NCBI RefSeq assembly: GCF_032484785.1
Contig: NZ_JAUETR010000001.1
Span: 3,847,501-3,911,500 of the forward strand
DNA: 64,000 nucleotides
Reading direction: 5' to 3'
Source of the DNA: Bradyrhizobium sp. SZCCHNS1050
GTDB lineage: Bacteria; Pseudomonadota; Alphaproteobacteria; Rhizobiales; Xanthobacteraceae
This document shows, piece by piece, positions 11,999 through 32,942 of the stretch. The notes beneath the pieces were generated by a model. The model made no database searches. It was not told where the DNA came from and saw only the letters and a list, made by a program, of their open reading frames with translations. Position 1 is the stretch's first letter, and every line of letters starts with the position of its first letter. The translations under genes were made by a program, and so were the position numbers.

Positions 11999-14887
11999 TT
12001 ATGAGGCGTCGCCACTCGATGCGTCCTCTATCTGGTTCAACAATTTGGAGGCACGGACAAGGTCTTGCGTACCAAAACCTTCAGTAAATTCCCCAAAAAT
12101 TGGAGTGAGCAATTGGACTGCGTCCTTCTCGCGGCCTGTCGTCGCCCAATGAGCCGCGAGGTCAGTGGCGGTCCGAAGTGCGAAAGTCAACGCGCCGATA
12201 GCGCGGGCCTCGGCAATCGCCTGCTTGAACAGCTTTTCAGCGCGGACAGTTTCGCCTGCGTGGAGAAAGATCGATGCATTGACACGAAGGAGTTCCGAGC
12301 GGCACCAGCGTTCGCCTTGGCGTTCCTGATAAGCGATCGCTCGCCTGACGGCGTCTCGCGCTTCGGCGACCCGTCCCTGCCGAAGATAGGCGCGAGCGAG
12401 GAAAGCCAGATAGCTGCCGATCCGCATCAAGAAGCGGCATTCAATCAGTTCATCGATCGCGTCGCGAATATCCTCCACCGCCCGCCGATCGCCGCGCAAG
12501 TTGCGCAGGCAGGCGGAGAAATAGCGCTCGACTGAAACCCAGCGAGAGATGCGCTCTCGTTCCAGGTTACGACGCAAACGTTCTGTGAAGAACGCGAGCG
12601 CATCAAGATCGCCAATTTCCAGGGAGATGGGAAGAGCGGCCAGCCCGAGTGCGTTCGACTGTGATACCCAATGGCCGCCGCGGTCTGCAGCATCCACGGC
12701 GTCGCGCGCCAGCTTGGCGGCGTAGTCGGCCTGCCCCTGCATCCACGCGACGAAGGGCAGGTTGAAGCGGACGGTGATGAAGCGGTAGACCTCATTTGCA
12801 TCCTTGCGCGAACGTCCCTGGGCCAGCGAATGGGTGGACGCGAGACGATCGAGAACTGGGCGGCTTTTGCCTAATTCGCCTGCGAAGGCGTGGGCCCAGG
12901 CTAAGGCCCTGTCGGCTTCGGATGTGGCCGTTGAATCGGGGTCCCGGCCAGCCAGCGAGGTAGCCTGCTCAAGATAGGTTATGGCACGTGCGATTTCTCC
13001 GATCTGGAGCAGGTAAAACGCAAAACCTACCAGCGCGCGCTGCTGATAATCGACGTTGCCGGCGCGTGTCGCGAACGCGATGGCATCAAGCCAAGCGACC
13101 TCGTTCTCATTCGAACTCTTGCGGGCGTAGAACAGACTCCATCCGAGGGCACAGGCGAGCTTCGCTTTTGACAGATCGTCGCATGGGACGCACTTGGCCA
13201 AGGCGAGTGCGACCTCCAGCCGCGCCTGCGCCTCCGACAGGATGGAGGTTTCCGACCAGAGAGTGATAGCCGCAACCGCAAGCCTGATGCCGAGCGTGGG
13301 ATCGCCTTGATCGCCGAACGACCATGATAGTGCGCTTCTCAGATCGGCAATGCGGCCGAGGTAGCGCTCGGTCCAATCGGCCGGCTCGCGCCAATTCCAC
13401 TCCTCCTCGGACTGCTCGAACAGCGCTATCATGCGTTCCGCATGCCGGCGCATCGCCGAGCCGCACGCTGGATCGCCCCGACACCGCTCGGCAGCGTAGC
13501 GGCGTGTACTGTCGAGCAGCCGGTAGCGCAGGCTCGCGCCACGGGCCTGCGCGCTCAGCAGTGACTTGGCGACGAGGCTCCCGAGTGCGGTCACAACATC
13601 GATTGGCGTGAGCCCCGCCGCTTCTGCCACGAAGACCGCATCATCGTGCTCGAATCCGTCACTGAACACGGACAGTACGGCGAACAGCCTGGCTTCCTTC
13701 TGCGAGAGCAGCCGGTAGCTCCACTCAATCGTGGCCATCAAGGTTTCGTGACGGGGCAACGAGGTGGCGATCCCGGCCGCGGTAAAACCGAGCTTCTGAT
13801 CGAGATTGACCAATAACTCCCGTGGAGTAAACCTGCCGATCTGGGCTGCAGCCAACTCGATGGCCAATGGAAGTCCGTCCAACGAATGGCAGACCGCGGC
13901 GATTGCGTTGCAATCGTCGTCGACGAACTCGTAGTCCGACCATTCGGTGGCGCGCCGGACGAACAGCTCCACCGCCGGAAACCTCACAGCGTGATCGACC
14001 GACAGCCCGAGATCGGAGCTCGGAAATGGGAGAGAGCCAATCCGAACGACATGCTCAAGGGTGGTGCCGAGCGGCTCGCGGCTCGTGGCAAGCAGCCTCG
14101 ATGGCGATGTGTCCGTCATGAACTTGCTGGCAAAGATCGTGGTGGCGGGCAGCACATGCTCGCAATTGTCGAGGATGAGCAGCATTTGCCGCGGCCTCAG
14201 ATAGTCGAGGACAGCAGCCAGACCAATGTCCGTATTGCCTCGGATACCGAGCGCCGTCACCAGCGCCGCGCCGAACAGAGTAGGATCGGAGATCGTCGCG
14301 AGATCGACGAAGCAGACGCCGTCGCGATATCTTGAACCGTACGCCTGAGCAACGGCTAAGGCGACGGTTGTCTTCCCTATTCCCCCGGCGCCGGCCAGTG
14401 TTATGTGTCTGTCCTTGGCGAGTAGATCGGCGATGGCGGCGATATCGGCTTCCCGGCCCACGATTCCGCGCGGCAATGGCGGCTGCGTAGGCGGGAGCGG
14501 ATCGGCCAGCGTAGGCTCCTCCTCGATATCGCCGATCCCGACCCGGACATCGGCGATAAATTTGTACCCGCGCCGTGCAACGGTCGCGATGTAGATGGGC
14601 TCTATCTGGGTGTCTCCCAGCGAGCGCCGCAAGCTCCACATATTGACCTTGAGATTGCTGTCATGGACGAACGTGCCCGGCCAGGCGGCCGCCGTCAGGT
14701 CGTTCTTGCTGACGAGCTCGCCCCGGCGCTGCACCAGCAGCCGCAAGAGTTCGAAGGCCCGTCCGCCCAGTTTGACGGGGCGCTCGTCCAGTAAAAGGAG
14801 CTGACGGCCGGGGACAAGTCGAAAAGGACCGAAGCTGAACGTCAGCTCCTGTCGGGGGACGCCCAGTTTCTTTGTGGCGGTCCGCAT
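11999..14887 (-). CDS. winged-helix/NB-ARC (STAND) transcriptional regulator, copy 1
   Basis: This 962-residue regulator has an OmpR-type DNA-binding winged helix (residues ~17-110: FSFGPFRLVPGRQLLL, LGGRAFELLRLLVQRRGELV, SLGDTQIEPIYIATVARRGY) fused to an NB-ARC/AAA signal-transduction ATPase. Walker A is GAGGIGKTTVALAVA near 171, Walker B MLLILDNCEHVLPA near 239, and the Arg-sensor region LLATSREPL near 265. The C-terminal ~450 residues are helical TPR-like repeats that usually sense a ligand or partner. It closely resembles the second copy at 19521-22358 in domain order, length and motifs. It probably controls the neighbouring enzyme genes; the ligand is unknown. Start ATG 14887 has no strong ribosome site. 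It is followed, upstream on its own strand, by a decayed aldo/keto reductase. Confidence 0.85.
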   Translation of the reverse strand: MRTATKKLGVPRQELTFSFGPFRLVPGRQLLLLDERPVKLGGRAFELLRLLVQRRGELVSKNDLTAAAWPGTFVHDSNLKVNMWSLRRSLGDTQIEPIYIATVARRGYKFIADVRVGIGDIEEEPTLADPLPPTQPPLPRGIVGREADIAAIADLLAKDRHITLAGAGGIGKTTVALAVAQAYGSRYRDGVCFVDLATISDPTLFGAALVTALGIRGNTDIGLAAVLDYLRPRQMLLILDNCEHVLPATTIFASKFMTDTSPSRLLATSREPLGTTLEHVVRIGSLPFPSSDLGLSVDHAVRFPAVELFVRRATEWSDYEFVDDDCNAIAAVCHSLDGLPLAIELAAAQIGRFTPRELLVNLDQKLGFTAAGIATSLPRHETLMATIEWSYRLLSQKEARLFAVLSVFSDGFEHDDAVFVAEAAGLTPIDVVTALGSLVAKSLLSAQARGASLRYRLLDSTRRYAAERCRGDPACGSAMRRHAERMIALFEQSEEEWNWREPADWTERYLGRIADLRSALSWSFGDQGDPTLGIRLAVAAITLWSETSILSEAQARLEVALALAKCVPCDDLSKAKLACALGWSLFYARKSSNENEVAWLDAIAFATRAGNVDYQQRALVGFAFYLLQIGEIARAITYLEQATSLAGRDPDSTATSEADRALAWAHAFAGELGKSRPVLDRLASTHSLAQGRSRKDANEVYRFITVRFNLPFVAWMQGQADYAAKLARDAVDAADRGGHWVSQSNALGLAALPISLEIGDLDALAFFTERLRRNLERERISRWVSVERYFSACLRNLRGDRRAVEDIRDAIDELIECRFLMRIGSYLAFLARAYLRQGRVAEARDAVRRAIAYQERQGERWCRSELLRVNASIFLHAGETVRAEKLFKQAIAEARAIGALTFALRTATDLAAHWATTGREKDAVQLLTPIFGEFTEGFGTQDLVRASKLLNQIEDASSGDAS

Positions 14888-15125
14888 TGAGCAAAGCCAA
14901 TCGGTCGACGAGATCGACTGGTAATATCATGACCTGAAAAGTTGTTAAAGCGAACCATTTGCAATTGCACGAGTGCAGCGCAAAATTCCTCGTCCGAGGC
15001 CCAACTGGCTACTTTTTGGGCACACTGCGAACGGCCGTGCTTATCGGCCCGATGGCTCGTCATGGAGTTGCGGAAACTTGGCGGAGCACTCTTTCGAATT
15101 GCACTTCAGTGAGGAAGCGGAGCTG

Positions 15126-15295
15126 GGGGTTGAAGAGCGCTTCGGAGCGCAGCTCGCGCCAGATTCGGCGGGGATGACTTCCGCAAGCGCCGCGCCACCC
15201 TCGGCAAAGCGGCCTGGGCGGCTCGCGCGGGAATGACGGCTGCCACGACCGGGTTTGCCAGTGCGTACCGCAGACCCGACGCCTTGGCAGCAAAT
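15126..15295 (-). pseudogene. remnant of aldo/keto reductase 3' end
   Basis: The stretch aligns base by base with the 3' part of the intact aldo/keto reductase at 24030-25043. On minus it encodes GLRYALANPVVAAVIP, matching GLQFALANPAVAAVIPGASR of the intact gene, and in another frame AEGGAALAEVIPAE, matching ADHAALAEVIPTE. The frame is broken by at least one indel and everything upstream of the last ~60 codons is missing. It occupies the same position relative to the STAND and AraC genes as the intact gene does in module 2. Confidence 0.8.
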
Positions 15296-15637
15296 GAAAA
15301 CGTAAGCAGTTTCATAGCTGGTCCTGATCCTTGGCGACATTGCCGTTTGATACGCTCTTTAGCGCGCGTGATCAGTTCCGATATTTCTCAGTCCTGCGCG
15401 ACGATGATCGCATCTTCCTCATCTGCGGTGAGGGCAGCTTCCAGGCAGCGGCGCGCGAGTGCAACCTGTTGCTCGCCTTTAACCCCTTTTAACCGAGCCA
15501 CGTCTGGACTTCGCTGTCGCGCCTTGTGAGAATTTCAGCATCGGCGTCGCAGTGGCCCGGGGCTGCACTCATTGACCGGACGGGATGATCGCTCTTGCGG
15601 TAGGAGGCCGGAAATCACCTCGCTTGCGCAGGCCGTG
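15296..15637. other. non-coding stretch, relic of the divergent AKR/AraC promoter region
   Basis: No gene is visible. Segments at about 15375-15430 (cgatatttctcagtcctgcgcgac) and 15480-15520 (ccttttaaccgagccacg...tggactt) resemble 25175-25230 and 25290-25325 in the intact divergent region, so this is the homologous intergenic region with the reductase 5' end deleted. Confidence 0.6.
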
Positions 15638-16209
15638 ATGGCATTCGTGGCTCATGGAGATCAGAAGTACCGAAACAGCGAGAAACTCGCAGCGGCCGAC
15701 GACTGGCCAGGGCTGAGCATAGAACATCGTAAGTTTGCAGCAGGATGCCAGGCGACGCCGATTCCCTTCTGCACCGAGCTGGTGATGCTGCTGTCAGGCG
15801 GCGGAATTGTCTGTCGCACCGGAAATGGAGAAATCCAGAAGAGCCTAGCGCGGCGCGGCATGAGCTACCTCGTCCCAATCGGGACGCAAGAAAGTCATGT
15901 CGAGCTTTCGGACTGGCCTGTCTCAGCCCCTATCATTTCTGCAGGCTGTTTCGCGAAGCGATCGGATTGTCACCGCACCGATACGTAACTGACCGGCGCG
16001 TTCGGGCTGCGCAGCACGAACTCGCGCGTAGCCGACCCTCCCTGGTGGAAATCGGCCCTGGAATTCGGTTCTGGCTCGCAAGCGAACTTCACGCGTGTCT
16101 TCCGCAAGGCTGCAAACCTCGCTCCGAGGCAGTACGCGAATTGTGCTTCGGCCAGATCGAGGCAATTGCCGATAGGCCTGATCCGAATGACCGCAGGGAT
16201 TGCTCATGA
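15638..16209 (+). pseudogene. AraC-family regulator, pseudogene with internal deletion
   Basis: It is paralogous to the intact AraC gene at 25405-26340. From ATG 15638 it reads MAFVAHGDQKYRNSEKLAAA and continues colinear through YLVPIGTQESHVELSD. It then jumps at about 15915 to sequence equal to the HTH part of the intact gene (ACLSPYHFCRLFREA, in the next frame). About 360 bp, corresponding to 25684-26046, are missing, and the junction shifts the frame. A further single-base loss (near 16055) breaks the second helix-turn-helix. The translated frame stops at 15988. The product could not bind as a normal AraC dimer, so this copy is dead or makes only a truncated N-terminal protein. Confidence 0.85.
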
Positions 16210-16211
16210 TC

Positions 16212-16230
16212 CCGCAGGATTCGCAAATAC
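16212..16230. promoter_or_regulatory. 19-bp motif shared with the intact AraC locus (copy 1)
   Basis: ccgcaggattcgcaaatac differs at two positions from 26343-26361. Each copy sits just after the AraC frame and 65-140 bp before the first plus-strand enzyme gene. It may be an operator for AraC or the STAND protein in the promoter of the downstream genes. Confidence 0.4.
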
Positions 16231-16296
16231 GGTTCTGGGACCAGGCGATAGTGTCACTGCGAGATCTTTCTTTATGGGCCTTACAGGAAGCCGATC

Positions 16297-16974
16297 ATGA
16301 CCCAACACGTCCTGTTTATCGTCAGCAACGCAGCAGTGATCGGCCCACAGAACCGCAAGACGGGCTTCTTTTTCGCCGAGGTTGCGCATCCGTTCGATGT
16401 TCTTGACAAGGCAGGCATCGCGGTTGAGTTCGCTTCCTTGAGAGGCGGATGGACGCCCTATGACGCCTACGACGAGAAAGATCCTGCGCAAAAAGCCTTC
16501 CTTGAAAGCAAGGCTTTTCGCCGTCTCAATCGCAGCCGCAAGCTGGCCGAGGTGGATGCTGCGGATTTTGATGCGATACTGGTGCCAGGCGGACTTGGGC
16601 CGATGGTCGATATCCAGCGAAACCCTACCGTTCATGATGCGGTTGTGCGTGCGTGGAGCACGGGAAAATTCGTGACGGCCGTTTGTCACGGTCCATGCGC
16701 GCTTCTCGGAGTAGACCTTGGCGACGGCAAGCCGTTCGTGCGGGGAAGAAAGCTAACATCGTTCTCGAAGAAGGAAGAGTACGACTACGCACGTGAAGAT
16801 GTTCCTTACGAGCTTGAAGATGCTTTGAGGGCCGAGGGCGCTGAATATACGTCTGCGGAAAACTGGCAGCCCCACGTCGTCGTCGATGGGCGCCTCATCA
16901 CCGGGCAAAATCCTGCATCGGCCGGGCTCCTGGCAAAGGAGCTGCTGGCGGCACTCAGAAGCAGCCGCGCATAG
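16297..16974 (+). CDS. DJ-1/PfpI (Hsp31-like class I glutamine amidotransferase fold) protein
   Basis: This 225-residue cytoplasmic protein has the DJ-1/PfpI fold: MTQHVLFIVSNAAVIGPQN at the start, an acidic residue in the FFFAEVAHPFDVL region, FDAILVPGGLGPMVD, and the nucleophile Cys in FVTAVCHGPCALLGV. The length and the 'nucleophile elbow' AVCHGP match the Hsp31/YajL-like branch, described as glyoxalase III, deglycase or chaperone. It is the first plus-strand gene after the AraC pseudogene, followed after 45 bp by an ABM protein. That suggests an operon for dealing with reactive carbonyls or oxidised metabolites. The exact reaction is unknown. Confidence 0.82.
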   Translation: MTQHVLFIVSNAAVIGPQNRKTGFFFAEVAHPFDVLDKAGIAVEFASLRGGWTPYDAYDEKDPAQKAFLESKAFRRLNRSRKLAEVDAADFDAILVPGGLGPMVDIQRNPTVHDAVVRAWSTGKFVTAVCHGPCALLGVDLGDGKPFVRGRKLTSFSKKEEYDYAREDVPYELEDALRAEGAEYTSAENWQPHVVVDGRLITGQNPASAGLLAKELLAALRSSRA

Positions 16975-17019
16975 CTGGACCGCTGAGGTAGCAGTCTCAA
17001 AAAGAGGTCGGTTCAAACA

Positions 17020-17507: not shown

Positions 17508-18512
17508 ATGCGTCTGTCTTGCACGATTGTCATCGGCCTGATCATGGCGAGTGCACATCCATCGTTCGGGGAGTCCACAGCGTCCGAATGTGGGCCGGTT
17601 GCGTCTGCTCATCGCTGCACGTTGCCAATGCCGAGCTGCGCAGCCGGCGCTTCAACGGTTCACTACCACACGGCCGCTATCAACGGCGTGAACGTGTTCT
17701 ACCGGGAGGCTGGGCCGGCAGATGGGCCGGTCGCTCTCCTTTTGCATGGCTTTCCGACGTCGTCACATATGTTCCGCGATTTGATCCCGAAGCTGGCTCA
17801 CAGATACCATGTCATTGCGCCGGACTATCCTGGCTTCGGGCAGAGCGACGCTCCAGACCGCAGCCGGTTCTCGTATTCGTTTTCGAACTATGCCGAGATG
17901 ATCGATGCTTTGCTGGATCAACTCGGTGCAAAGCGCTACGCCATGTACGTCATGGATTACGGGGCGCCGGTCGGCTATCGGCTCGCTCTCAAACATCCTG
18001 AGCGTGTGACTGCCCTCATCGTTCAAAACGGCAACGCCTACGAAGAGGGTTTGCGAGACGCTTGGGATCCGATCAAGGCGTATTGGAAAGAAGGCACGGA
18101 GGAGCGGAGGAATGCGCTTTCGTTCCTCGTCTCGGCCCCGTCGACAAAATTCCTGTACACCGACGGCGTACGCGATCCGACCCGCATCAGTCCCGATAAT
18201 TGGGTCAATGACCAGGCACTCCTGGATCGTCCGGGCAACAAGGATATTCAGCTCGACCTGCTGTACGATCACGCGGCCAACGTCCCGCTCTATCCGGCCT
18301 TCCAGGCGTTTTTCCGCGAACGTAAACCTCCGACCCTGATCCTCTGGGGCAAGAATGACAAAGTCTTCGCTGAAGCAGGCGCGCACGCCTATCTGCGCGA
18401 TTTGCCAGCAGCCGAGCTGCACATGCTCGACACCGGCCACTTCGCACTCGAGGACCAAATCGACGTGATGGCGCCGTTGATCAACGACTTTCTCGACCGA
18501 GTCTACAATTGA
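17508..18512 (+). CDS. exported alpha/beta hydrolase (haloalkane dehalogenase/epoxide hydrolase-like)
   Basis: The protein is 334 residues with a Sec signal peptide ([20 protein letters not shown]) and a Cys-containing linker. The alpha/beta hydrolase core starts with the oxyanion motif [18 protein letters not shown] and YPGFGQSD. The nucleophile position reads [12 protein letters not shown], an Asp as in haloalkane dehalogenases and epoxide hydrolases, not the usual Ser. The acid follows [11 protein letters not shown] and the catalytic His lies in [10 protein letters not shown]. The nucleophile supports C-X or epoxide chemistry, but substrate is not predictable. It is exported to the periplasm, which is unusual for dehalogenases. 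It belongs to the plus-strand gene series of module 1. Confidence 0.82.
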
Positions 18513-18588
18513 TACCGATGCAAGGCGATCGCACGACGCCGACGTTAGCTGATTGTTTATGCCGCCCCAGAAGACGAAAGGAAAACAT

Positions 18589-19341
18589 ATGAAGTACCTG
18601 GCACCTTTGCTGGCCCTCTCCGCGCTTGCCATGACGTCGACCTCCTCGGGAGCTCAGCAGCAGAAAGCGACATCCGTCGTCCTCGTCCATGGAGCGTTCG
18701 TCGATGGCTCAGGCTGGCAGGCGGTCTACGATCTTCTCAAGAAGGACGGCTATGAAGTATTGGTGGTCCAGAATCCCACCATCACACTCGAAGGCGACGT
18801 CGCCGCCACAGAAGCGGTGATCGCAGCAGCCAAGTATCCCGTCGTGCTCGTGGGGCACTCCTATGGCGGCATGGTGATCACGCAGGCGGGCGAAAATCCG
18901 AAGGTCAAAAGCTTGGCTTACATCGCAGCTTTTGCGCCGGACACGGGCGAATCGGCCGCATCGCTAAATTCGTGGCCAGCAGAGCCTGGCGAAACGAAGG
19001 CGCCGCTGCTGCCCCCGCAGAACGGCTATCTACTGGTCGATCCCGCGAAGTTCCCGACCTCCTTTGCAGCGGATTCCCCCGTGGCGCTCACCGAGTTCAT
19101 GGCGGTAGCGCAAGTGCCGTGGGGATTACAAGCCGTTGAAGCGAAGGTCACGAAGGTGGGCTGGAAGGCAAAGCCGAGCGTCTTCCTGATCCCGTCTCAG
19201 GATCGCATGATAACCCCGAGTTCGCAAAGAAAGATGGCCAAGCGAAGCGGTGCGCGAGTGGAAGAGATAAGCAGCAGCCATGCGGTGATGCTGTCTCATC
19301 CGCGGGAGGTCGCCGCGTTCATCGAGTCTGCCGACCGATGA
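18589..19341 (+). CDS. exported alpha/beta hydrolase, esterase-like (Ser nucleophile)
   Basis: The product is 250 residues from ATG 18589 behind AAAGGA; an upstream in-frame ATG at 18553 is less likely because the signal peptide (MKYLAPLLALSALAMTST) starts at the chosen one. Core motifs are VVLVHGAFVDGSGWQAVYDLL, the nucleophile elbow VVLVGHSYGGMVI, and a late His in SSSHAVMLSHP. This is the typical 'alpha/beta fold hydrolase' of about 240 residues related to plant methylesterases and hydroxynitrile lyases. The neighbouring hydrolase has an Asp nucleophile, so the two are not recent duplicates. It is the last plus-strand gene of module 1, ending before a hairpin and the convergent STAND gene. 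Confidence 0.82.
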   Translation: MKYLAPLLALSALAMTSTSSGAQQQKATSVVLVHGAFVDGSGWQAVYDLLKKDGYEVLVVQNPTITLEGDVAATEAVIAAAKYPVVLVGHSYGGMVITQAGENPKVKSLAYIAAFAPDTGESAASLNSWPAEPGETKAPLLPPQNGYLLVDPAKFPTSFAADSPVALTEFMAVAQVPWGLQAVEAKVTKVGWKAKPSVFLIPSQDRMITPSSQRKMAKRSGARVEEISSSHAVMLSHPREVAAFIESADR

Positions 19342-22358: not shown

Positions 22359-22560
22359 GAGCTCCTTTGAGGTCGAACCTTGGATCGAGGCTCGCGGCCT
22401 CCGTTCGACCATCTATCAATTGAGCCGGTTATGCGCCAGTCGCGGCCGCCCTGGAGGCCGTCGGCTGGTTCGACGTGACGTCCGTCTCGTACAATGGAAC
22501 CTCAGGCGATACAGGCGGCTGCCTTGCTTTGCCAAAGCTCGCCTTTCGCCGGGAATTCGA

Positions 22561-22983
22561 TCATTGCCGCGGCGCGGCTAAAACCGTCATCCGCATGACA
22601 TCGACGCCGCCATCGGCAAGCTCCGGCAGCTTGGCGAACCACGCCTTGACATAGGGCATGGCATTGTGGGCATCGAAATCGGCCTGGCTGGCAAAGACCT
22701 CGTAGAAGACGAAATGTCCCGGCTTGGCACGATCCTCCTGAAGGAAGTACACGAGGTTCTTCGGGTCGCCGCGGACCAGATCGATCAAGGGCAGGGTGGC
22801 CGCTCTCAATGCATCCTCCTTGCCTGGCTTTGCCCGCACCTGCGCCACCACGGAGTAGGCGCCGTTCGGAATGGCCGCATAGCTCGGCGACGAGGTCTGC
22901 TGGGCGGAAGCGGCCGAGCCCGTGAGCGTCGATGCAGCGACGAGGAGGGCAGTGAATAGCTGAGCGTGCAAGTAATTTGGCAT
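22561..22983 (-). CDS. exported ABM-domain (putative quinol monooxygenase) protein
   Basis: The product is 140 residues from ATG 22981-22983 after AAAAGGA. The signal peptide (LFTALLVAASTLTGSAASAQ) is followed by one ABM domain: YSVVAQVRAKPGKEDALRAA, NLVYFLQEDRAKPGHFVFYE, SQADFDAHNAMPYVKAWF. This fits the putative quinol monooxygenase family but is exported, which is uncommon. It lies between the VOC gene and the STAND regulator on the same strand. A periplasmic enzyme acting on quinone-like or aromatic compounds is a reasonable inference. Confidence 0.8.
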   Translation of the reverse strand: MPNYLHAQLFTALLVAASTLTGSAASAQQTSSPSYAAIPNGAYSVVAQVRAKPGKEDALRAATLPLIDLVRGDPKNLVYFLQEDRAKPGHFVFYEVFASQADFDAHNAMPYVKAWFAKLPELADGGVDVMRMTVLAAPRQ

Positions 22984-23083
22984 CGAATGTCCTTTTCGCG
23001 TGGGATGTCCGCGATGAGCCGGTGCAGGCCGAACGGCCGTCGAACGCACCAGCAACCGGGTGGCTGCTGGTGCCTTTGGCGGA

Positions 23084-23935: not shown

Positions 23936-24029
23936 CTGCAATCTCCTGGCTGTCAACGGGCTGTGTTGCGGCCGTGTGGGCGAGAGTGGGGGGCCGGCCG
24001 CAGATCAATGCCCCCAACTCGGAAGCTGG

Positions 24030-25043: not shown

Positions 25044-25404
25044 GCTCTCGTCTCCTTAGATTCCGGGCGACGCCGGCATGCGGCAAGGGGATTGACTGAG
25101 ACGCACGATGACCTCCGATCGCGATTGTGGACGTGGCTGATTGGCTCAGCCTTCACTACGGCGGATTGGCGCGGACATATTTTCGGATTCTGCGCGATGA
25201 CGGACCGATCTTGCTGATTGCAGCGCAGTTTCAACAATCGTCCGAGAAGAATGGGGTCGTCAGGAAGCCTTTGTGCTTATTGCGATTTACCTCTTTTAAC
25301 CGCGCGCCCGCTGGACTTTGCCGGCGCTGTCGCGAACAAGTGGCAAGTCAATGCAGACGACCGGCAGCGTTAGTCGGGATACCTCAGACCGAGCGGAGGC
25401 CACG
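25044..25404. promoter_or_regulatory. divergent promoter region between AKR and AraC genes
   Basis: This 361-bp gene-free segment serves both divergent genes. Parts of it, including 25175-25230 and 25290-25325, are conserved in the relic region of module 1, suggesting maintained control elements. No precise -35/-10 or operator could be assigned by eye. Confidence 0.5.
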
Positions 25405-26340
25405 ATGCCGCTCCCTACGCATGGGGATGAGAAATATCGGAACAGTGAGAAGCTCGCGGAAGCCAAGGATTGGCAACACCTCGGCATCGAGCATCGCAAG
25501 TTCGAGGCCGGTCGTCAGGAGACGCCCGTTCCGATCTGCAACGAACTCGTGCTGCTGCTTGCAGGTGGAGGCATCGTCTCGCGCACCGGCAATGGCGAAG
25601 CACAGACGAGTCTCGCCCGGCCGGGCATGACCTATCTCGTTCCGGTCGGCACGCAGGAGAGCCGTCTCGAGTTGTCGGACCGGATGGAGTGCCTGCATCT
25701 CTATCTTCCTCCAGCCCTCATTGATCACAGTGCGCTTGCCGATTTCGATGTCGATCCGGACAAGGTCGAGATCGTCTATGCCGACGGCCTCGCGGACCAA
25801 GTGATCTTCCAGATCTGCTCGCCGCTGCGCGATTTGTTGTATCGGCCGCGCCAGCCGACCGACGCGCTGTTTGTCGAGGGCATCCAGACTGCGCTTGCGG
25901 CCCATCTCATCGGCTGTTACACGATCGATCGCTGGCGGCCGCCCGAGAGATCGCCTTCGCTCGATCCGCGACGGCTGCAACGTGTGATCGACTTCATCGA
26001 AGCTTCGCTTGGCACCGATATCCGGCTCGACGAGCTTGCCGCGCAGGCCTGTCTCAGCCCGTTCCATTTCTCGCGCCTGTTTCGCGAGGCGACCGGCCTA
26101 TCGCCGCATCGCTACGTCACCGATCGCCGAGTCCAGGCGGCGCGGCATGAGCTGGCGCACAACGACGCACCGCTGGTCCAGATCGCGCTCGACTTCGGCT
26201 TCGGATCGCAAGCCAATTTCACGCGCGTCTTTCGCAAGGCCACCGGCTTGACGCCCGGACAATATCGCGAGTTGTGCTGCGGCTCCTCGCTAGCGAAGTC
26301 GGGTCGTCGCGCACTCGATCGGCGCACAGATTGTCCATAA
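25405..26340 (+). CDS. AraC-family transcriptional regulator
   Basis: The product is 311 residues from ATG 25405 (MPLPTHGDEKYRNSEKLAEA), five bases after GGAGG. The N-terminal ~190 residues form a cupin-like sensor (NELVLLLAGGGIVSRTGNGE, TYLVPVGTQESRLEL). The C-terminal ~100 residues hold the double helix-turn-helix: LDELAAQACLSPFHFSRLFR, then ATGLSPHRYVTDRRVQAARH, and second helix IALDFGFGSQANFTRVFRKA followed by TGLTPGQYRE. It is divergent from the AKR gene and immediately upstream of the molybdenum-oxidoreductase operon, so it likely controls both. It is the intact parent-type copy of the pseudogene in module 1. Confidence 0.92.
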   Translation: MPLPTHGDEKYRNSEKLAEAKDWQHLGIEHRKFEAGRQETPVPICNELVLLLAGGGIVSRTGNGEAQTSLARPGMTYLVPVGTQESRLELSDRMECLHLYLPPALIDHSALADFDVDPDKVEIVYADGLADQVIFQICSPLRDLLYRPRQPTDALFVEGIQTALAAHLIGCYTIDRWRPPERSPSLDPRRLQRVIDFIEASLGTDIRLDELAAQACLSPFHFSRLFREATGLSPHRYVTDRRVQAARHELAHNDAPLVQIALDFGFGSQANFTRVFRKATGLTPGQYRELCCGSSLAKSGRRALDRRTDCP

Positions 26341-26342
26341 TA

Positions 26343-26361
26343 CCGCAGGATTTGCCAATAC
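26343..26361. promoter_or_regulatory. 19-bp motif shared with the AraC pseudogene locus (copy 2)
   Basis: ccgcaggatttgccaatac lies just after the AraC stop and 139 bp before the oxidoreductase start. It matches 16212-16230 in 17 of 19 positions. The surrounding sequence is also related, so it may be conserved by common descent, by function, or both. Confidence 0.4.
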
Positions 26362-26499
26362 CGTCGCGTCCCCATGCGGCAGACTACATGCGTCAGCTTC
26401 GCCGAACTAACTGCCGGCCGCATCCCAATGCGGCTGCTTCTGTAACCGTCGGCTTCAGATCGCAAGTGCGGCAGGCATCTGAGAGGAGGAGTCATCGAC

Positions 26500-26964
26500 A
26501 TGATCGAGTTCACGGTCAATGGAACTAAGCGTCAGGTCGACGTCACTCCCGACATGCCTTTGCTTTGGGTGCTCAGGGATGAGCTTGGGATCACAAGTGC
26601 CAAATATGGCTGCGGCGTCGCGCAGTGCGGCGCGTGTACGGTTCACATCGACGGCTTGGCGGTCCGCTCCTGTCAGTCGCGGATCGGCGATCTCGCCGGC
26701 AAGTCGGTCGTCACGCTCGACGGCGTCGACGGACGCGATCAGCATCCGGTCGTGCAGGCCTGGATCGAGCATCAGGTGCCGCAATGCGGCTACTGCCAGA
26801 CCGGGCAGATCATGCAGGCGATTTCGCTGCTGGACCTGATCCCTAAGCCGACCGACGAACAGATCGACCAGGTCATGTCCGGCAATCTTTGCCGCTGCGG
26901 CACCTATCCTCGTATTCGCGCCGCGATTCACGCGGCGGCCGCAAAGAAGATGGCGGAGAAGTAA
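26500..26964 (+). CDS. (2Fe-2S) subunit of xanthine-dehydrogenase-family oxidoreductase (IorA-like)
   Basis: This 154-residue iron-sulfur electron-transfer subunit has a plant-type ferredoxin domain with Cys motif [14 protein letters not shown] plus RSCQS, then the helical second-cluster domain with [10 protein letters not shown] and [13 protein letters not shown]. All eight Cys are present. Family partners are isoquinoline 1-oxidoreductase alpha and aldehyde or nicotinate oxidoreductase small subunits. GAGAGGAGGAG stands upstream. The large molybdenum subunit starts one base after its stop, so the two are co-translated. No separate FAD subunit is present, as in IorAB-type enzymes. Confidence 0.92.
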
Positions 26965-26965: not shown

Positions 26966-29221
26966 ATGGATATCGCGCAAGGTCTTTCCCGTCGGTCCTT
27001 CCTCATCGGGTCCGCGGCGCTGGCCGGCGGTGTTGCATTCGGCGGCTACGGCGCGGCCGTGCAGGCGGCTGAATCGGCCAGCGACAATCCGCTGGCCGCG
27101 GGCCTTGCGCCCGATGCGGTGACCTTCAACCCATGGGTCGAGATCAGTGCCGGCAAGATCACGCTGATTGCCCAGCATGCCGATATCGGCCAGGGCACCG
27201 GCTCGGTGCAACCGATGATGATCGCCGAGGAGATGGACCTCGATCCCGGTCAGTTCGAGATCCGGTTCGCCGGACCGCACCCCGCCTATTTCAATACGGG
27301 CTTCAAGGAAGAGCTCGCACCCTTCCTGGCTGCGGACCAGAGCCCTGCCGCCGAGAAGGCTCGCGCCGCCGCGCTCGAAGGTCTAAGGAAGTCCGGGCTG
27401 CAGATGACGGGTGGGTCGAGCACCATCCCTGACACTTATGAGAAGCTGCGGGTGGCCGGCGCCGTCGCGCGCGAGACGTTGAAGCTTGCGGCGGCCAAGC
27501 GCACGGGCGTGCCGCTGGCCGATCTCAGCACCCAGTCCGGTCATGTGGTGCTGCCGAACGCCACGCGGATCGCCTATGTCGATCTCGCAGCGGACGCGGC
27601 GCGCATTCCGCCGGTGCTCGACGCCAAGCCGCGCGATCCCTCGACGTGGAGGATTCTTGGCAAGCCGATGATGCGGCTCGACATCCGCTCGAAAGTGCTG
27701 GGCGAATTGAAGTTCGGCATCGACATGAGGATGGACGGGATGCTGTACGCCGCCGTCAAACTGAACCCCAACAAGGGGCAGCCGCTGAAATCCTACGATG
27801 CCTCCAAGGCACGGACAATGCCGGGCGTGAAGAAGATCCTGCGTTTGAAGAACGGCGTCGCTGCCGTCGCGACAAATAGCTGGTATGCCATGAAGGCGGT
27901 CGAGACGATCGACTGCGAATGGGCACCGTCGACCTATCCTGCCGAACAGGCCGATCATTGGAAGACGCTGGAGGCATCTTTCAAACCGGAGTTTCTCGGC
28001 AAGGAGTGGCGCAAGATCGGTGATGTCGAGGCCGGTCTCAAGCAAGGCAAGCGGGTCGAGGCCGAGTATCGCGCACCTTATGTCGGTCACCAGCCACTGG
28101 AGCCGCTCAACGGCGTCGCCGTCGTAACCGATGCGGGCATGGAGATCTGGGTCGGGCATCAGAGCCCGCAGGCGGTGCAGGCGATCGCGGCTGCCAATGC
28201 CGGCCTGAAGCCGGAGCAGGTGACGTTTCACAACCAGTGGACGGGCGGCAGCTTCGGGCATCGTTTGGAGTTCGAGAACGTCCGCGTGCTGGCGGAGATC
28301 GCCAGCCAGATGCGCGGCACGCCGATCAAGCTGGTGTTCTCGCGCGAGGAGGATTTCCGTCAGGATATCCCGCGCCAGATCTCGATCGCCCGCCACAAAG
28401 GCAGCGTGGCCAAGGGCAGGATCATTTCGGCCGACCTGAAGCTCGCGGGCACGATGCCCTATAACGGACTGCTCGAGCACATGGGCATGCCGACCAAGGA
28501 TCCCGATCCGCAACTCGCCGCCGGGCTGTGGAACGTCTACTACGATATCCCGCACTTTCGCGCTACGACCTTCGAGGCGCGCAACCTGTCGCCGTGCACG
28601 ACCTGGCGCTCGGTCGGTGCCTCCACGGCCGGCTTCTTCACCGAGAGTTTCATCGACGAGATGATTCATGCGGCGGGGCTCGACCCGATGAAAGCTCGCA
28701 TCGAGATGTGTGTCGTGCCGCACTATCGCAAGGTGCTCGAGACGGTTGCGGAGATGTCGGACTGGAAGGGACCTCTCGGTCAGGGCAGGGGCCGCGGCGT
28801 CGCCTTCGTCGAGTCGTTCGGAACGCCGGTCGCCGAGGTCGTCGACGTGACGGCGACGCCGCGCGGCATCCGCGTCGACAAGGTTTTCGTCGCCGTCGAT
28901 GTCGGCAAGATAATCGACCCCGTCAACTTCGAGAGCCAGGTGCAGGGCGGCGTCGTCTGGGGGCTCGGTCACGCAATGAACTGCGAACTGACCTACGCCA
29001 AGGGCGGGGTGCAGCAGACCAACTACAATCATCACGAAGCGATGCGAATGTACCAGTGTCCGGTGATCACCGTGCGCGGTCTCGAGAACGATCCGAAGGT
29101 GAGGGGCCTCGGTGAGCCGCCGGTGCCGCCCGTGGCGCCCGCCCTCGCCAACGCGATCTTCGCGGCCACGGGCAAGCGCATCCGCGAAATGCCCTTCAAC
29201 AAGTTCATCGAATTCGTGTGA
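26966..29221 (+). CDS. molybdopterin-binding subunit, isoquinoline 1-oxidoreductase (IorB)-like, Tat-exported
   Basis: This 751-residue catalytic subunit carries a twin-arginine signal (LSRRSFLIGSAALAGGVAFG), so the enzyme is exported folded with its cofactor and partner subunit. Family segments include WVEISAGKITLIAQHADIGQ, TGGSFGHRLEFENV, SPCTTWRSVGASTAGFFTES and VAVDVGKIIDPVNFESQVQG, typical of the xanthine dehydrogenase family. The IorB-type subset lacks an FAD subunit and passes electrons to a cytochrome. The downstream gene, 8 bp away, encodes a small haem-motif protein that could be that acceptor. The likely reaction is hydroxylation of an N-heterocycle or oxidation of an aldehyde; substrate not determined. 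Confidence 0.9.
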   Translation: MDIAQGLSRRSFLIGSAALAGGVAFGGYGAAVQAAESASDNPLAAGLAPDAVTFNPWVEISAGKITLIAQHADIGQGTGSVQPMMIAEEMDLDPGQFEIRFAGPHPAYFNTGFKEELAPFLAADQSPAAEKARAAALEGLRKSGLQMTGGSSTIPDTYEKLRVAGAVARETLKLAAAKRTGVPLADLSTQSGHVVLPNATRIAYVDLAADAARIPPVLDAKPRDPSTWRILGKPMMRLDIRSKVLGELKFGIDMRMDGMLYAAVKLNPNKGQPLKSYDASKARTMPGVKKILRLKNGVAAVATNSWYAMKAVETIDCEWAPSTYPAEQADHWKTLEASFKPEFLGKEWRKIGDVEAGLKQGKRVEAEYRAPYVGHQPLEPLNGVAVVTDAGMEIWVGHQSPQAVQAIAAANAGLKPEQVTFHNQWTGGSFGHRLEFENVRVLAEIASQMRGTPIKLVFSREEDFRQDIPRQISIARHKGSVAKGRIISADLKLAGTMPYNGLLEHMGMPTKDPDPQLAAGLWNVYYDIPHFRATTFEARNLSPCTTWRSVGASTAGFFTESFIDEMIHAAGLDPMKARIEMCVVPHYRKVLETVAEMSDWKGPLGQGRGRGVAFVESFGTPVAEVVDVTATPRGIRVDKVFVAVDVGKIIDPVNFESQVQGGVVWGLGHAMNCELTYAKGGVQQTNYNHHEAMRMYQCPVITVRGLENDPKVRGLGEPPVPPVAPALANAIFAATGKRIREMPFNKFIEFV

Positions 29222-29229
29222 GGCAGGCC

Positions 29230-29862
29230 ATGAAACGCTCTTTGACTGCGATGGTCGTCGCCACGTCAGCTATTGCGGCGCTCACTGGCATCGTTGCCGC
29301 CAAGGACGAGACCAACAAAGACGCGCTGCCGCCCGGCAGCGTCAGCCGCGCTGAAGGACTGAAGGCCTGGAGGCGGATCGAAGCGGTCATCACTCATCCG
29401 CGCTGCGCCAATTGTCACGTCGATGCCAGGGCGATTCCGATCTGGACGCCGGCGGGTGAAACCAAACCGCGCGTGCACGGCATGAACATCCATGGTGGCG
29501 ACAGCCGCATCGGTGCCGAGGCGGTGCCGTGCTCGACCTGTCACATGACCTCGGCTATGCCGAATGATCCGGCGCCTGCGCCGCCGCACGCGGGCATTGA
29601 CTGGCAACTCGCGCCAGTCGAGTTCATCTGGTTCGGCAAGAAAGGCGCCGAGATCTGCGCGCAACTCAAGGATCCCAAGCGCAACGGGGGCCGCGACGCC
29701 GTCGGTCTGCTCGAACATCTGCGCCATGACGCTTCGCAGAACGGCTTCATCCCGCGCGGCTGGGCGCCGGGCGCGGGACGCTCAACGCCGCCGGGCACGT
29801 TCGAGGATCACGTCAAGGATGTGGCCCTCTGGGGCGCGGCAGGACAGCCTTGTCCAAAGTGA
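29230..29862 (+). CDS. exported protein with two CXXCH haem c motifs
   Basis: The product is 210 residues from ATG 29230 after GAGGCAGG; a GTG at 29218 overlapping the previous stop is an alternative. It has a Sec signal peptide (SLTAMVVATSAIAALTGIVA), then CANCH at residues 59-63 and CSTCH at 101-105, so it may carry two c-type haems. Further His and Met residues could be axial ligands (RVHGMNIHGG). It resembles the small cytochromes seen next to isoquinoline-oxidoreductase-like genes. Position right after the Mo subunit suggests the periplasmic electron acceptor of that enzyme. I do not recognise a named family. Confidence 0.75.
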   Translation: MKRSLTAMVVATSAIAALTGIVAAKDETNKDALPPGSVSRAEGLKAWRRIEAVITHPRCANCHVDARAIPIWTPAGETKPRVHGMNIHGGDSRIGAEAVPCSTCHMTSAMPNDPAPAPPHAGIDWQLAPVEFIWFGKKGAEICAQLKDPKRNGGRDAVGLLEHLRHDASQNGFIPRGWAPGAGRSTPPGTFEDHVKDVALWGAAGQPCPK

Positions 29863-30010
29863 CACAGCCACGCGGCGGTTCCGAGGGCGTGAATAGCTGT
29901 GCGCCAGAGCTTCCGCAGCGCGGACGCGCTGACATCAACATGTGAACCGATTGCGAGATCGTCGCGCCGTGATCGCCGCGATCTGACCTTCCTTGTGAGT
30001 GGAGACAGTG

Positions 30011-31240
30011 ATGCTCGAGAGCGCCTACCGAGCGCAATGCGCAGCCGTTGAGGACCATTGCACGGATGATGCCCAGCAGCGCAGGCGCGGCCTGACGCTG
30101 TTTGCGCTCGCGTTCGGAAGCTTCTGCATCGGCACGTCCGAATTCGCGAGCATGGGAATCCTTCAGTTGCTCTCGACCGGGCTTGGCGTCGACATTCCGG
30201 CCGCGACCTACGCAATCACGGCTTACGCGTTCGGTGTGGTGGTCGGAGCGCCTCTCGTGACGCTGATGGCCGCGCGGCTAAACCGGCGGACGCTGCTGCT
30301 CTGCCTCATGGCGCTGTTCGTGCTCGGCAACGCGCTGTCGGCGATTGCCCTCAATCTGCTGCTTCTAGCCCTCGCGCGTTTCGTGAGCGGACTGCCGCAA
30401 GGTGCCTACTTCGGCGCGGGCGCCATGGTCGCGTCCTACATCGTCGGTCCCGGTCAATCCGGCAGGGCGTTCGCGCAGGTCATGGGCGGACTGACGATTG
30501 CAACCATCATTGGATCGCCGCTGGCGACCTTCCTGGGTCAGGCGATTGGCTGGCGGCGGACCTATGCCGTCGTCGCATGCGTGGGGCTGCTTGCGCTGCT
30601 GGCTCTTTGGGCTTGGGTGCCGGTTAGTCGGGCGCTTCGCGGCCGTCCCTTGATGCAGGAGCTCGGCGCGCTGCGCCGGCCCGCCGTGTGGGGCACCATG
30701 CTGGTCGCGGCGCTCGGTGTTGCCAGCATCTTCGCGATCTACACTTTCATCGGTCCGCTGGTGACTGACCAGGCCGCACTTGATCGCGCCTGGATCCCAT
30801 TCGCGTTGGCGCTGTTCGGGTTCGGCATGACCTTCGGCAACTTCATCGGCGGGCGACTCGCCGATGCCTATCCCGCGCGTGGCCTCGTCGTCGGATTCGG
30901 TTGCGCTCTCGTGGTGCTCGCTGTTCTGGCGATCGCAGGCAGCCATGTCTGGGTGCTCATGCCCGCCTTGTTCGGCGTGGGCGCCACGATGATGACCGCG
31001 ATCCCGACCATTCAGGTCCGGCTTACGCGCCTGGCCCCGGAAGCGCCCACTTTGATGGGCGCCATGAATCTCGCCGCGCTCAACTTGTCTAATGCGATCG
31101 GCGCATGGGCCGGCGGCCAGGTGATCGCGTCCGGTCACGGACTGCTGTCATGCGCATGGGCTGGTTTCGGTTTGACAATGCTCGGGCTCGCCGTCTTCGC
31201 GCTGACCCTGGCAAAGGTGCCGCAGCTCGCGCGGGCATGA
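30011..31240 (+). CDS. MFS transporter, DHA1-type (AraJ-like) efflux permease
   Basis: The product is 409 residues from ATG 30011, six bases after GGAG. About twelve membrane helices are visible, e.g. LFALAFGSFCIGTSEFASMG, LLLCLMALFVLGNALSAIAL, VVLAVLAIAGSHVWVLMPAL. The loop between TM2 and TM3 has the family motif-A-like MAARLNRRTLLL, and ALARFVSGLPQGAYFGAGAM is typical of the AraJ/sugar-efflux/chloramphenicol-resistance branch. It sits 148 bp after the cytochrome gene and 19 bp before the redox fusion gene. It could export a product or toxic substrate of the enzyme set (inference). Confidence 0.88.
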   Translation: MLESAYRAQCAAVEDHCTDDAQQRRRGLTLFALAFGSFCIGTSEFASMGILQLLSTGLGVDIPAATYAITAYAFGVVVGAPLVTLMAARLNRRTLLLCLMALFVLGNALSAIALNLLLLALARFVSGLPQGAYFGAGAMVASYIVGPGQSGRAFAQVMGGLTIATIIGSPLATFLGQAIGWRRTYAVVACVGLLALLALWAWVPVSRALRGRPLMQELGALRRPAVWGTMLVAALGVASIFAIYTFIGPLVTDQAALDRAWIPFALALFGFGMTFGNFIGGRLADAYPARGLVVGFGCALVVLAVLAIAGSHVWVLMPALFGVGATMMTAIPTIQVRLTRLAPEAPTLMGAMNLAALNLSNAIGAWAGGQVIASGHGLLSCAWAGFGLTMLGLAVFALTLAKVPQLARA

Positions 31241-31259
31241 ACGAAGCCGGCTTGGCTGC

Positions 31260-32942
31260 ATGGAACGGGTGTTTGACGCCATGGCTATCAGTGAGACTCG
31301 CCGCGAGCAGATCTTCCCGACGCTTTCGGAGTCGCAAATCAGCGTGGCCCGGCGCTTTGCAAGCGAGGATGCACGCCGCTTCGACGCTCATGAGACGATC
31401 TACGACATCGGTGCCCGCAACATTCCAGCCTGGATGATCCTGGAGGGATCAGCCGATGCGCGCATGCGCGGCGCGGCGGGCAAGTCGTCGCTGGTGACGA
31501 CCTACCGCCGCGGGCAGTTCACTGGCGAGACCAATCACCTGTCGGGCCGTCCAACGCTGATGTCGGTCGTCGCAGGCGAACAGGGGGCGCTGGCTGTTCC
31601 ATTCGATGCGCCGCATTTGCGCGCCCTCGTCATTGCCTCGGCCGAGGTCGGCGAGATCATCATGCGGGCGTACATTCTTCGTCGCATCATGCTGATCGAG
31701 GAGGGGCAGGGCGGCAGTGCCGGCTCGGTCCTGGTCGGTCGCAGCGATGCACCCGAAATCGTGCGCCTCGCGGGCTTTCTGGCACGCAACGGCTATCCGT
31801 TCACCACGATCGATGCGTCGGAATCGGAGGGACGTGAACTGGTGCAACGGCTCGGCATCGCGGCCGACGATCTGCCGTTGATGATCTGTCCCAACGGCAC
31901 GTTGCTGGCGAAGCCGAGCGATGCCGACGCGGCGTCCTGTCTTGGCATTTTGCCGGTGCTCGACCCGCAGACGGTGTACGATGTCGCCATCGTTGGCGCC
32001 GGGCCGGCGGGACTGGCGGCGGCGGTCTACGCCGCATCGGAAGGGCTCTCTGCCCTGGTGCTCGATTCCCGCGCCTTCGGCGGCCAGGCGGGTGCGTCCG
32101 CGCGGATCGAGAACTATCTCGGCTTCCCCACGGGCATTTCAGGTCAGGCCCTGGCCGGACGCGCGTTCAATCAAGCCGTCAAGTTCGGCGCCGAAGTCGC
32201 GATCCCGCTCACGGTCGACCGGCTTCACTGTCACGGGGATGAGTCGGGTGCCGACTTTACGCTGGAGCTCGGCGGCGGAAGCACGGCACGTGCGAAGACC
32301 GTCGTGATCGCGTCGGGAGCCCGGTATCGGCGGCCGGACATTGCCGGCTTGGGCGAGTTCGAAGGTGCCGGCGTTTCGTACTGGGCGTCGCCGATCGAGG
32401 CACGTCTCTGCGCGGATGCCAAGGTCACGCTGGTCGGCGGCGGCAACTCAGCGGGTCAGGCGGTTGCCTATCTCGCGCCCCTGGTCGAGCGGCTCGACCT
32501 CGTGGTTCGCCGGCCGCTGGCGCAGACGATGTCGCGTTATCTGATCGACCGGATTTCCGCGCTTCCAAATGTCGAGCTGCATCTTGGCTCGGAAGTCGTC
32601 GTCCTGCACGGTAACCGCGCGACGGGCGTGACCGCCGTGACGCTGCGCGACAACGGCAGCGGCACCACTCGGACGCAGGAGGCGCGCCATCTGTTCCTCT
32701 TCATCGGCGCCGATCCCAATTCGCAGTGGATCAACGGCTGCGTTGACATCGACGGCCGCGGCTTCGTGCTGACGGGCGAGCAAGCCGGACCGGGGCACAG
32801 ATTGCCGCTCGAGACGAGCAGGCCCGGGATCTTTGCGATCGGCGATGTCAGGGCAGGTTCGACCAAGCGCGTCGCAGCCGCCGTCGGCGAAGGCGCCACC
32901 GTCGTCTCGCAGATCCATTCGGTCCTGACGCGAAGGCGCTGA
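31260..32942 (+). CDS. fusion of CRP-like cyclic-nucleotide-binding domain and thioredoxin-reductase-like flavoprotein
   Basis: This 560-residue protein has an N-terminal ~140-residue cyclic-nucleotide-binding-like domain (RRFDAHETIYDIGARNIPAW, YRRGQFTGETNHLSGRPTLM). A ~90-residue thioredoxin-like spacer follows (PEIVRLAGFLARNGYPFTTI). From about 235 comes the FAD/NAD(P)H oxidoreductase: GxGxxG in YDVAIVGAGPAGLAAAVYAA near 245, GGQAGASARIENYLGFPTGI, second nucleotide fold VTLVGGGNSAGQAV near 391, and FAIGDVRAGSTKRVAAAVGE at the end. The redox CxxC of true thioredoxin reductases is missing: the segment after GVSYWA reads SPIEARLC. It is therefore unlikely to reduce thioredoxin in the standard way. 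It is the last gene of module 2. The start is supported by frame length only. Confidence 0.85.
   Translation: MERVFDAMAISETRREQIFPTLSESQISVARRFASEDARRFDAHETIYDIGARNIPAWMILEGSADARMRGAAGKSSLVTTYRRGQFTGETNHLSGRPTLMSVVAGEQGALAVPFDAPHLRALVIASAEVGEIIMRAYILRRIMLIEEGQGGSAGSVLVGRSDAPEIVRLAGFLARNGYPFTTIDASESEGRELVQRLGIAADDLPLMICPNGTLLAKPSDADAASCLGILPVLDPQTVYDVAIVGAGPAGLAAAVYAASEGLSALVLDSRAFGGQAGASARIENYLGFPTGISGQALAGRAFNQAVKFGAEVAIPLTVDRLHCHGDESGADFTLELGGGSTARAKTVVIASGARYRRPDIAGLGEFEGAGVSYWASPIEARLCADAKVTLVGGGNSAGQAVAYLAPLVERLDLVVRRPLAQTMSRYLIDRISALPNVELHLGSEVVVLHGNRATGVTAVTLRDNGSGTTRTQEARHLFLFIGADPNSQWINGCVDIDGRGFVLTGEQAGPGHRLPLETSRPGIFAIGDVRAGSTKRVAAAVGEGATVVSQIHSVLTRRR

Follow-up and report, generated by a model that had tools for sequence, protein, structure and literature searches.

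The window analyzed here, a 64,000-nucleotide stretch of Bradyrhizobium sp. SZCCHNS1050 (contig NZ_JAUETR010000001.1, positions 3,847,501 to 3,911,500) lying inside a 7.6 Mb genome, contains a mobilizable island borne on a tRNA-Val gene, overlooked in the initial annotation, that carries two modules built around a STAND regulator, an aldo/keto reductase (AKR) and an AraC-family regulator. Phylogenies indicate that these modules are independently derived versions of one widespread locus, and two conserved DNA footprints lead us to propose that the STAND protein controls araC and that AraC in turn activates two arms of enzymes for handling electrophiles, a composite reading that we regard as moderately probable. 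The two footprints could show what a little-studied class of STAND regulators controls; one STAND clade now has a predicted site to bind, a predicted promoter to act on and a partner regulator that has two sites of its own.

Two versions of one locus

When remnants are counted, STAND, AKR and AraC follow the same order in both modules (Table 1). Module 2 comprises STAND2, an antibiotic-biosynthesis-monooxygenase (ABM) domain protein, a VOC protein and AKR on the minus strand, followed on the plus strand by AraC, a 2Fe-2S subunit (Fer2), a molybdopterin large subunit (Moco), a cytochrome-like subunit, an MFS transporter and a thioredoxin-reductase-like protein; module 1 comprises STAND1 (minus), an AKR tail, a broken AraC gene, and DJ-1 and two hydrolases (plus). 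The initial annotation had described two tandem copies of this arrangement, the second intact and the first lacking AKR and AraC. The large winged-helix STAND regulators and the AKR lie on the minus strand and AraC on the plus strand as it had stated, and module 2 is complete, with STAND2, AKR and AraC in order; module 1 is likewise not intact, but the AKR tail and the frame-broken AraC remain, which implies that both modules once held STAND (minus), AKR (minus) and AraC (plus).

The shared order would also fit one tandem duplication of the complete unit with later losses from module 1, but the trees make this highly improbable. The initial annotation had tied a joint duplication to agreement among the STAND, AKR and AraC phylogenies. 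The window and usual types are sisters in the AraC tree (53 rows, support 99/98) and in the AKR tree (47 rows, support 100/96), but the STANDs are not: STAND1 nests with genomes G380 and G515 inside the usual Bradyrhizobium clade, and STAND2 lies in a different clade, beside Bradyrhizobium oligotrophicum and, at greater distance, proteins of Reyranella and others (quick tree, 107 rows; careful tree, 34 selected rows with G515 left out). Constraining both STAND types together, in a group named after the first tree had been seen, cost 199.5 log units (p-AU 1.97e-5), and this disagreement between STAND and AKR/AraC trees led us to reject joint duplication, correcting the tandem-duplication reading of the island. 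Module 1 is also 81-84% identical in DNA to a locus of genome G380 (L120), compared with about 73% to module 2 over the AKR and AraC pieces. Relative to the usual locus, median similarity in module 2 is 73-86% for the other genes and 49% for STAND2. The closest counterparts in B. oligotrophicum (STAND 76%, AraC 86%, AKR 89%) were all reported together with its longest contig (407,860 bases), so that the three may be linked there.

The comparison with L120 identifies module 1 as a decayed copy of another Bradyrhizobium locus. The AKR remnant sits inside a 3344-bp match of 84% identity that extends into the AKR of L120; relative to that locus, module 1 is missing about 360 bp within AraC as well as about 1.6 kb comprising a hydrolase and the body of AKR. 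Module 1 of G515 is likewise without an open AraC frame, as judged by eye. Despite this decay, dN/dS values between the window and G515 (STAND1 0.17, DJ-1 0.19, ABH1 0.08, ABH2 0.07) indicate that these four genes are still under constraint.

Recurrence and exchange within the locus

We searched 265 same-genus genomes with STAND2, scoring three candidates per genome, and found a match at E<=1e-100 in 182 and matches of at least 48% identity at 43 places in 41 genomes. An AKR of at least 80% identity was present in 38 of the 265 (one partial, one split in two pieces), and in 32 of these 38, counted from coordinates, a STAND of at least 48% lay within a few kb of it. Forty-nine loci were fetched, from all 39 other genomes with such a STAND, six with AKR only and four with more distant STANDs; this count excludes both G515 loci and nine overlapping extension loci. 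Taking pieces above 30% of gene length as presence, and with many fetched stretches stopping inside the right arm, AraC occurred in 39 loci, Fer2 and Moco in 38, ABM and VOC in 37 and AKR in 36. The usual order places STAND, ABM, VOC, AKR and ABH' on one strand and AraC and Fer2-Moco-cytochrome on the other, with DJ-1 after the latter genes in at least ten loci of this order. Because the order recurs in dozens of related genomes, it is more than chance, and the expectation that the neighbourhood would be found elsewhere, with a recurring chassis and varying flanking enzymes, held among these loci.

Outside the family, a divergent STAND adjoined araC in 5 of 16 fetched araC loci (L217, L258, L262, L263 and L264) and was lacking in the other 11. 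In four of the five (not L262), the genes after araC include an AKR (73-76%), an MFS transporter (51-62% like that of the window) and a hydrolase with 39-41% likeness to ABH2, with DJ-1 also present in L263 and L264; since the same association appears in other families in a different gene order, it is older than that order. A class-wide search for AraC found it in 2 of 337 genomes, one of them the window's own. We also considered AKR alone as a marker of the locus and set it aside, as AKR homologs above 80% occur in Azospirillum, Caulobacter and others. Two annotated plasmids listed no STAND within 10 kb of AKR, in a gene table that is incomplete.

The STAND slot itself varies: 6 of the 39 AraC loci have another or a truncated STAND. 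AraC and its sites thus look like the constant core, with the STAND slot among the changing parts. Taken together, the comparisons support a real and recurrent STAND/AKR/AraC module, best described as an AraC/AKR divergon with an added STAND layer. No description of this locus was found in the literature covered, namely titles and abstract openings, with most subscription papers outside coverage.

Six loci (L128, L129, L130, L131, L233 and L260) have, in place of the usual STAND, a shorter relative (31-34%) accompanied by an oppositely oriented one (29-32%). AKR, VOC or ABM is truncated or split over two frames in L225, L230, L224 and L231, through sequencing errors or early decay.

A candidate AraC site before both arms

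Alignment of the spacers of the AraC loci revealed the same 21-bp block, CGCAGGAWTCGGAAATACSGC (site 1), before both arms; we presume that it resembles XylS-type sites. At up to 5 mismatches, each of the 39 AraC loci has a single left copy and a single right copy, both oriented towards their own arm, and the ten AraC-less loci have none. Behind the left copy lies ABH' in 30 loci, AKR in 6 and VOC in 3, and behind the right copy Fer2 in 35 and DJ-1 in 4; this variety of first genes suggests that the site persists while the gene changes. In a scan of 12 selected genomes with an 18-bp core, 66 matches with at most 2 mismatches were found against 2 for the reversed control, and all 19 perfect matches lay within the locus; the many 2-mismatch matches elsewhere may be weak sites or chance.

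Site 1 also extends beyond the genus. In 12 outside loci (L222, L255, L256 and L259 were left out as copies, and L260 as a typical locus of the same family), the best matches after araC on the coding strand summed to 72 mismatches, compared with 100.1 +/- 3.7 for 2000 shuffled patterns (minimum 82), and the controls did not stand out (opposite strand 96, upstream 94 and 100). The best match had 5 or 6 mismatches in nine of these loci. Within the island, three matches with at most 5 mismatches were found against 0.18 expected from 40 simulated sequences.

Several points weigh against this assignment. The in-genus counts come from related loci, on which the consensus itself was drawn; the best match had 8 mismatches in 3 of the 12 outside loci (L220, L263 and L265), and several of the others are near relatives. 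The left site of module 2 has 6 mismatches, and at that threshold the island holds five matches against 1.15 expected, so that position, and not score, identifies the site at 25174.

We propose that AraC would activate both enzyme arms through the site before the first gene of each, by analogy with YqhC, an AraC-type activator that acts on a reductase operon (PMC5297802). The DJ-1/hydrolase arm of module 1 retains an AraC-type site and signs of constraint although its own AraC is broken, and the AraC of module 2 may therefore drive its own arms and also this orphaned one.

A candidate STAND site before araC

Comparison of the regions upstream of STAND and araC drew attention to a second element, GGTTAAANNAGGTAAA (site 2), a GGTTAA/GGTAAA direct repeat. 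In the AraC-less loci it first came to light when the DNA upstream of usual-clade STAND genes, which proved conserved and promoter-like, was examined for a site. It occurs once within 350 bp before araC in all 39 AraC loci (31 perfect, seven with one mismatch, one with two). We propose that the winged-helix ATPase binds this repeat and thereby controls araC, which would make another regulator gene the predicted target.

An alternative is that AraC is the sole switch, site 2 being a conserved part of the araC core promoter and the STAND a neighbour with unrelated targets. Retention of site 2 before araC in the loci with another or a truncated STAND (6/39) would fit this explanation, as would the existence of araC homologs without a STAND (ten loci). 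Site 2 nevertheless stands before STAND or enzyme genes in 6 of the 10 AraC-less loci: L100, L102, L114 and L226 have a perfect copy where STAND and an enzyme gene diverge, in the spacer, and L125 and L126 a copy with one mismatch before Fer2. It also recurs in the five out-of-family STAND/araC spacers (14 summed mismatches compared with 27.3 +/- 1.9, none of 2000 shuffles being as low) and is missing before araC in the ten loci with no STAND match at E<=1e-3 in the fetched stretch (57 summed mismatches, shuffles 51.3). OmpR-type winged helices would be well matched by direct repeats spaced about ten bases, which favours the STAND domain as the reader of this site. We rate AraC acting alone as unlikely.

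Genome-wide scans of 15 selected genomes, G515 not among them, found the sole perfect site 2 match at the locus in 11, and no perfect match in G326 and G331, which are without this STAND. Upstream regions of distant STANDs (28-41% relatives, among the matches listed) provided a further background, in which site 2 appeared at up to 2 mismatches in 4 of 85, from three loci, with 0.1 expected.

A number of observations count against control of araC by the STAND through site 2. As with site 1, the loci counted within the genus are related to one another and also supplied the consensus. At up to one mismatch, the 15 genomes gave 17 matches and the reversed control also 17, so that only the perfect matches and their place are telling; the other 81 of the 85 distant-STAND regions lack the site at 2 mismatches, and some of the ten araC loci that lack a STAND are near copies. 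Among AraC-less loci, site 2 was not found in L112, which has the usual STAND and recognition helix and so also favours AraC acting alone, or in L124, and in L094 and L123 it has two mismatches and is not upstream of STAND; in L094 a distant DJ-1-like gene starts 189 bp after it. A slightly altered site 2 is kept by five loci whose STAND is clearly different, and the island end of G515 has a perfect copy beside a 37% AraC relative with no STAND match there, again as expected were AraC the only switch; this copy may be an extra target or an exception.

Two further observations concern this site. Its first base is altered in five of the six loci with the replaced STAND pair (L128-L131 and L233). 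The sequence AGTTAAACGTTGTTAA, four mismatches from site 2, lies upstream of STAND in the Pseudomonas loci L142, L163 and L182.

The initial annotation had imagined two regulators over a swappable cargo. Two footprints, each co-occurring with its regulator, fit that view, but the STAND is itself among the parts that change. We tentatively advance a two-tier circuit with exchangeable ends, in which the STAND would gate AraC through the repeat, the STAND would be replaceable by distant relatives and the arms replaceable too while the sites persist, and in this island the AraC of module 2 would have adopted the orphaned arm of module 1. In the locus, regulator sites persist even as the genes that follow them and the regulator that precedes them are swapped.

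Predicted function

The enzymes of the island (AKR, VOC, ABM, DJ-1, the hydrolases and the molybdenum hydroxylase with its cytochrome-like protein), together with the efflux-type transporter, most likely serve to eliminate or oxidise reactive compounds, with aldehydes or other electrophiles as the likeliest substrates. An alternative to the handling of reactive carbonyls or other electrophiles, which the enzyme set suggests, is a catabolic role, with an N-heterocycle or aromatic aldehyde, for example, used as a nutrient. The molybdenum hydroxylase with its 2Fe-2S subunit and cytochrome-like protein would suit such a cassette, AKR homologs are often named D-threo-aldose 1-dehydrogenase, and one hydrolase weakly matches aromatic-pathway hydrolases, far below cut-off. 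DJ-1, VOC, ABM, AKR and an efflux-type MFS transporter occurring together are nevertheless typical of detoxification. AKR and DJ-1 act on glyoxals (PMC5297802). We consider a catabolic cassette somewhat unlikely. Substrates, effector and the order of the cascade, like binding and activation, are what we infer from the DNA.

Such a defence against reactive carbonyls would have a parallel in Escherichia coli, where the AraC/XylS activator YqhC is transcribed away from the reductase genes yqhDE, one of which encodes an aldo-keto reductase, and the yqhD promoter responds to glyoxal and furfural (PMC5297802). In the present locus, too, araC is divergent from an operon holding AKR (36 of 49 loci) with a conserved site before the operon; in contrast, the excerpted text of that report mentions no STAND regulator and no second arm beyond the regulator gene (PMC5297802). 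No YqhC-named model was among the matches listed (25 of 30 NCBIfam families). In Pseudomonas aeruginosa, the AraC-type regulator CmrA is reported to take part in a toxic-electrophile response involving efflux, acting on the mexEF-oprN pump via mexS and mexT (partial text of PMC7819972); the likeness lies in the AraC-type regulator, electrophile response and efflux, and the difference in a STAND partner, which that partial text does not mention (PMC7819972).

The island and its boundaries

Between perfect 47-bp direct repeats, the right one in tRNA-Val, lie a tyrosine integrase, a TraA relaxase and TraD, followed by both modules. An integrase, direct repeats at the 3' end of a tRNA gene and a relaxase are the features by which integrative mobilizable elements are recognised, and tRNA-borne elements of that kind share them with this island, whose cargo of two STAND/AraC modules differs. 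G515 holds the same island, with 97% identity across 8.9 kb on the left; its right end is longer and bears other cargo and its own repeat. This near-identical island lends indirect support to transfer. The DNA to the right of the tRNA gene has a match in all 25 same-genus genomes, the window's own counted, among 41 searched. No secretion genes were found among the 20 proteins scanned.

To the left of the island (581-5424), the window encodes a putative metal-efflux adaptor, read from its translation, and a putative pump, judged by open reading frame size. In the longer island end of G515 (L093:8545-12234), a further AraC (37%) is accompanied by an AKR of 39%, and the perfect site 2 lies at 8545-8560.

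The STAND proteins

STAND transcription regulators include MalT, AfsR and GutR, and like them STAND1 and STAND2 fuse a P-loop ATPase core to a DNA-binding domain. The DNA-binding domain of MalT is of the LuxR type, whereas the window proteins have an N-terminal winged helix of the OmpR/CadC type; their similarity to AfsR is weak, far below cut-off. The predicted target, another regulator gene, also sets them apart; for winged-helix STAND ATPases like these, no target has to our knowledge been described. Pfam reports Trans_reg_C in both proteins, NB-ARC above cut-off in STAND2 only and AAA_22 in STAND1 only; TPR matches are below cut-off in STAND1 and absent in STAND2. Walker A (GAGGIGKT and GPAGVGKT) and Walker B motifs are present, LLILDNCEH being matched by pattern in STAND1 and LLDNCEH read in the translation of STAND2, where the pattern used gave no match.

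STAND1 and STAND2 are 48% identical overall, with 71% shared in the DNA-binding domain and 46% in the remainder. In 11 of 11 STAND2 relatives, and in nearly all other STANDs compared (L260_x4799 excepted), conservation is likewise higher in the DNA-binding domain than outside it; the difference between 71% and 46% is therefore not special to this pair, which, together with L112 and the extra copy of site 2 in G515, slightly lowers our confidence in the proposed circuit. We looked for a domain chimera in STAND2 and saw no sign of one, as its DNA-binding domain and remainder are both closest to the same relatives (11 compared). The recognition-helix letters NLKVNM-x-xLRR were likewise rejected as a marker of site 2: they accompany it in most loci but are not discriminating, since L112 has the usual helix, and L012 a close one, without the site.

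Table 1. Features of the island, in order of position in the window
Feature	Position	Strand	Basis or remark
Left attachment repeat, copy of tRNA-Val 3' end	6272..6318	.	perfect 47-bp direct repeat with 33580-33626
Tyrosine integrase	6393..7907	+	Pfam Phage_integrase, Arm-DNA-bind_3; PHROG integrase
TraA/MobQ relaxase-helicase	8391..11402	-	NCBIfam NF010464, 1774 bits, above cut-off
TraD accessory protein	11382..11882	+	Pfam TraD
STAND1, module 1 (winged helix, P-loop ATPase, candidate TPR-like part)	11999..14887	-	frame intact; Trans_reg_C, AAA_22
AKR remnant, C-terminal part alone	15109..15285	-	tblastn 43% to AKR 276-335
Left AraC-type site, module 1	15378..15398	-	5 mismatches; flanks consensus-like
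Candidate STAND site (site 2), module 1	15479..15494	-	2 mismatches
AraC pseudogene, module 1	~15557..16209	+	frame break; ~360-bp internal deletion relative to L120
Right AraC-type site, module 1, before DJ-1	16213..16233	+	3 mismatches
DJ-1/PfpI family protein, glyoxalase III-like	16297..16974	+	family searches; Cys-His motif
Alpha/beta hydrolase (ABH1)	17508..18512	+	nearest named families are haloalkane dehalogenases
Alpha/beta hydrolase 2 (ABH2)	18553..19341	+	Pfam; true start probably later
STAND2 regulator	19521..22412	-	Pfam Trans_reg_C and NB-ARC above cut-off; trees
ABM domain protein	22561..23055	-	family search
VOC/glyoxalase family protein	23084..23956	-	family search
AKR	24030..25043	-	D-threo-aldose 1-dehydrogenase-like by source names of homologs
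Left AraC-type site, module 2, before AKR	25174..25194	-	weak, 6 mismatches to genus consensus; known by place
Candidate STAND site (site 2) before araC, module 2	25286..25301	-	0 mismatches
AraC-family regulator, module 2	25318..26340	+	start probably near 25405, compare 311-aa database version
Right AraC-type site, module 2, before Fer2	26344..26364	+	4 mismatches
2Fe-2S subunit (Fer2) of molybdenum hydroxylase	26500..26964	+	family searches
Molybdopterin large subunit	26966..29221	+	nearest solved chain is the large subunit of an aldehyde dehydrogenase
Cytochrome c-like subunit	29218..29862	+	two CxxCH motifs; no Pfam or NCBIfam match
MFS transporter, Cmx/AraJ-like, efflux-type	29999..31240	+	family searches
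Thioredoxin-reductase-like protein	31260..32942	+	cyclic-nucleotide-binding-like N-terminus below Pfam cut-off
Right attachment repeat in tRNA-Val(cac)	33580..33656	-	repeat copy 33580-33626; tRNA-Val 33582-33656

STAND relatives are numerous, with 1309 at E<=1e-100 among 8000 scored candidates, and some occur in other settings. Side-by-side pairs on one strand, less than 100 bp apart, are found at G460:C68:100012-105724, G485:C1:3877938-3883650 and G501:C54:187193-192870. In the Pseudomonas loci L142, L144, L156, L163, L176, L182 and L206 a convergent pair of STAND genes comes after an AraC gene. The distant STAND loci L137, L140, L138 and L175 (Microvirga, Rhizobium, Nitrospirillum and Pseudoduganella) have thioredoxin-reductase-like proteins, hydrolases or DJ-1 within 10 kb, and these neighbours are 59-87% like those of the window.

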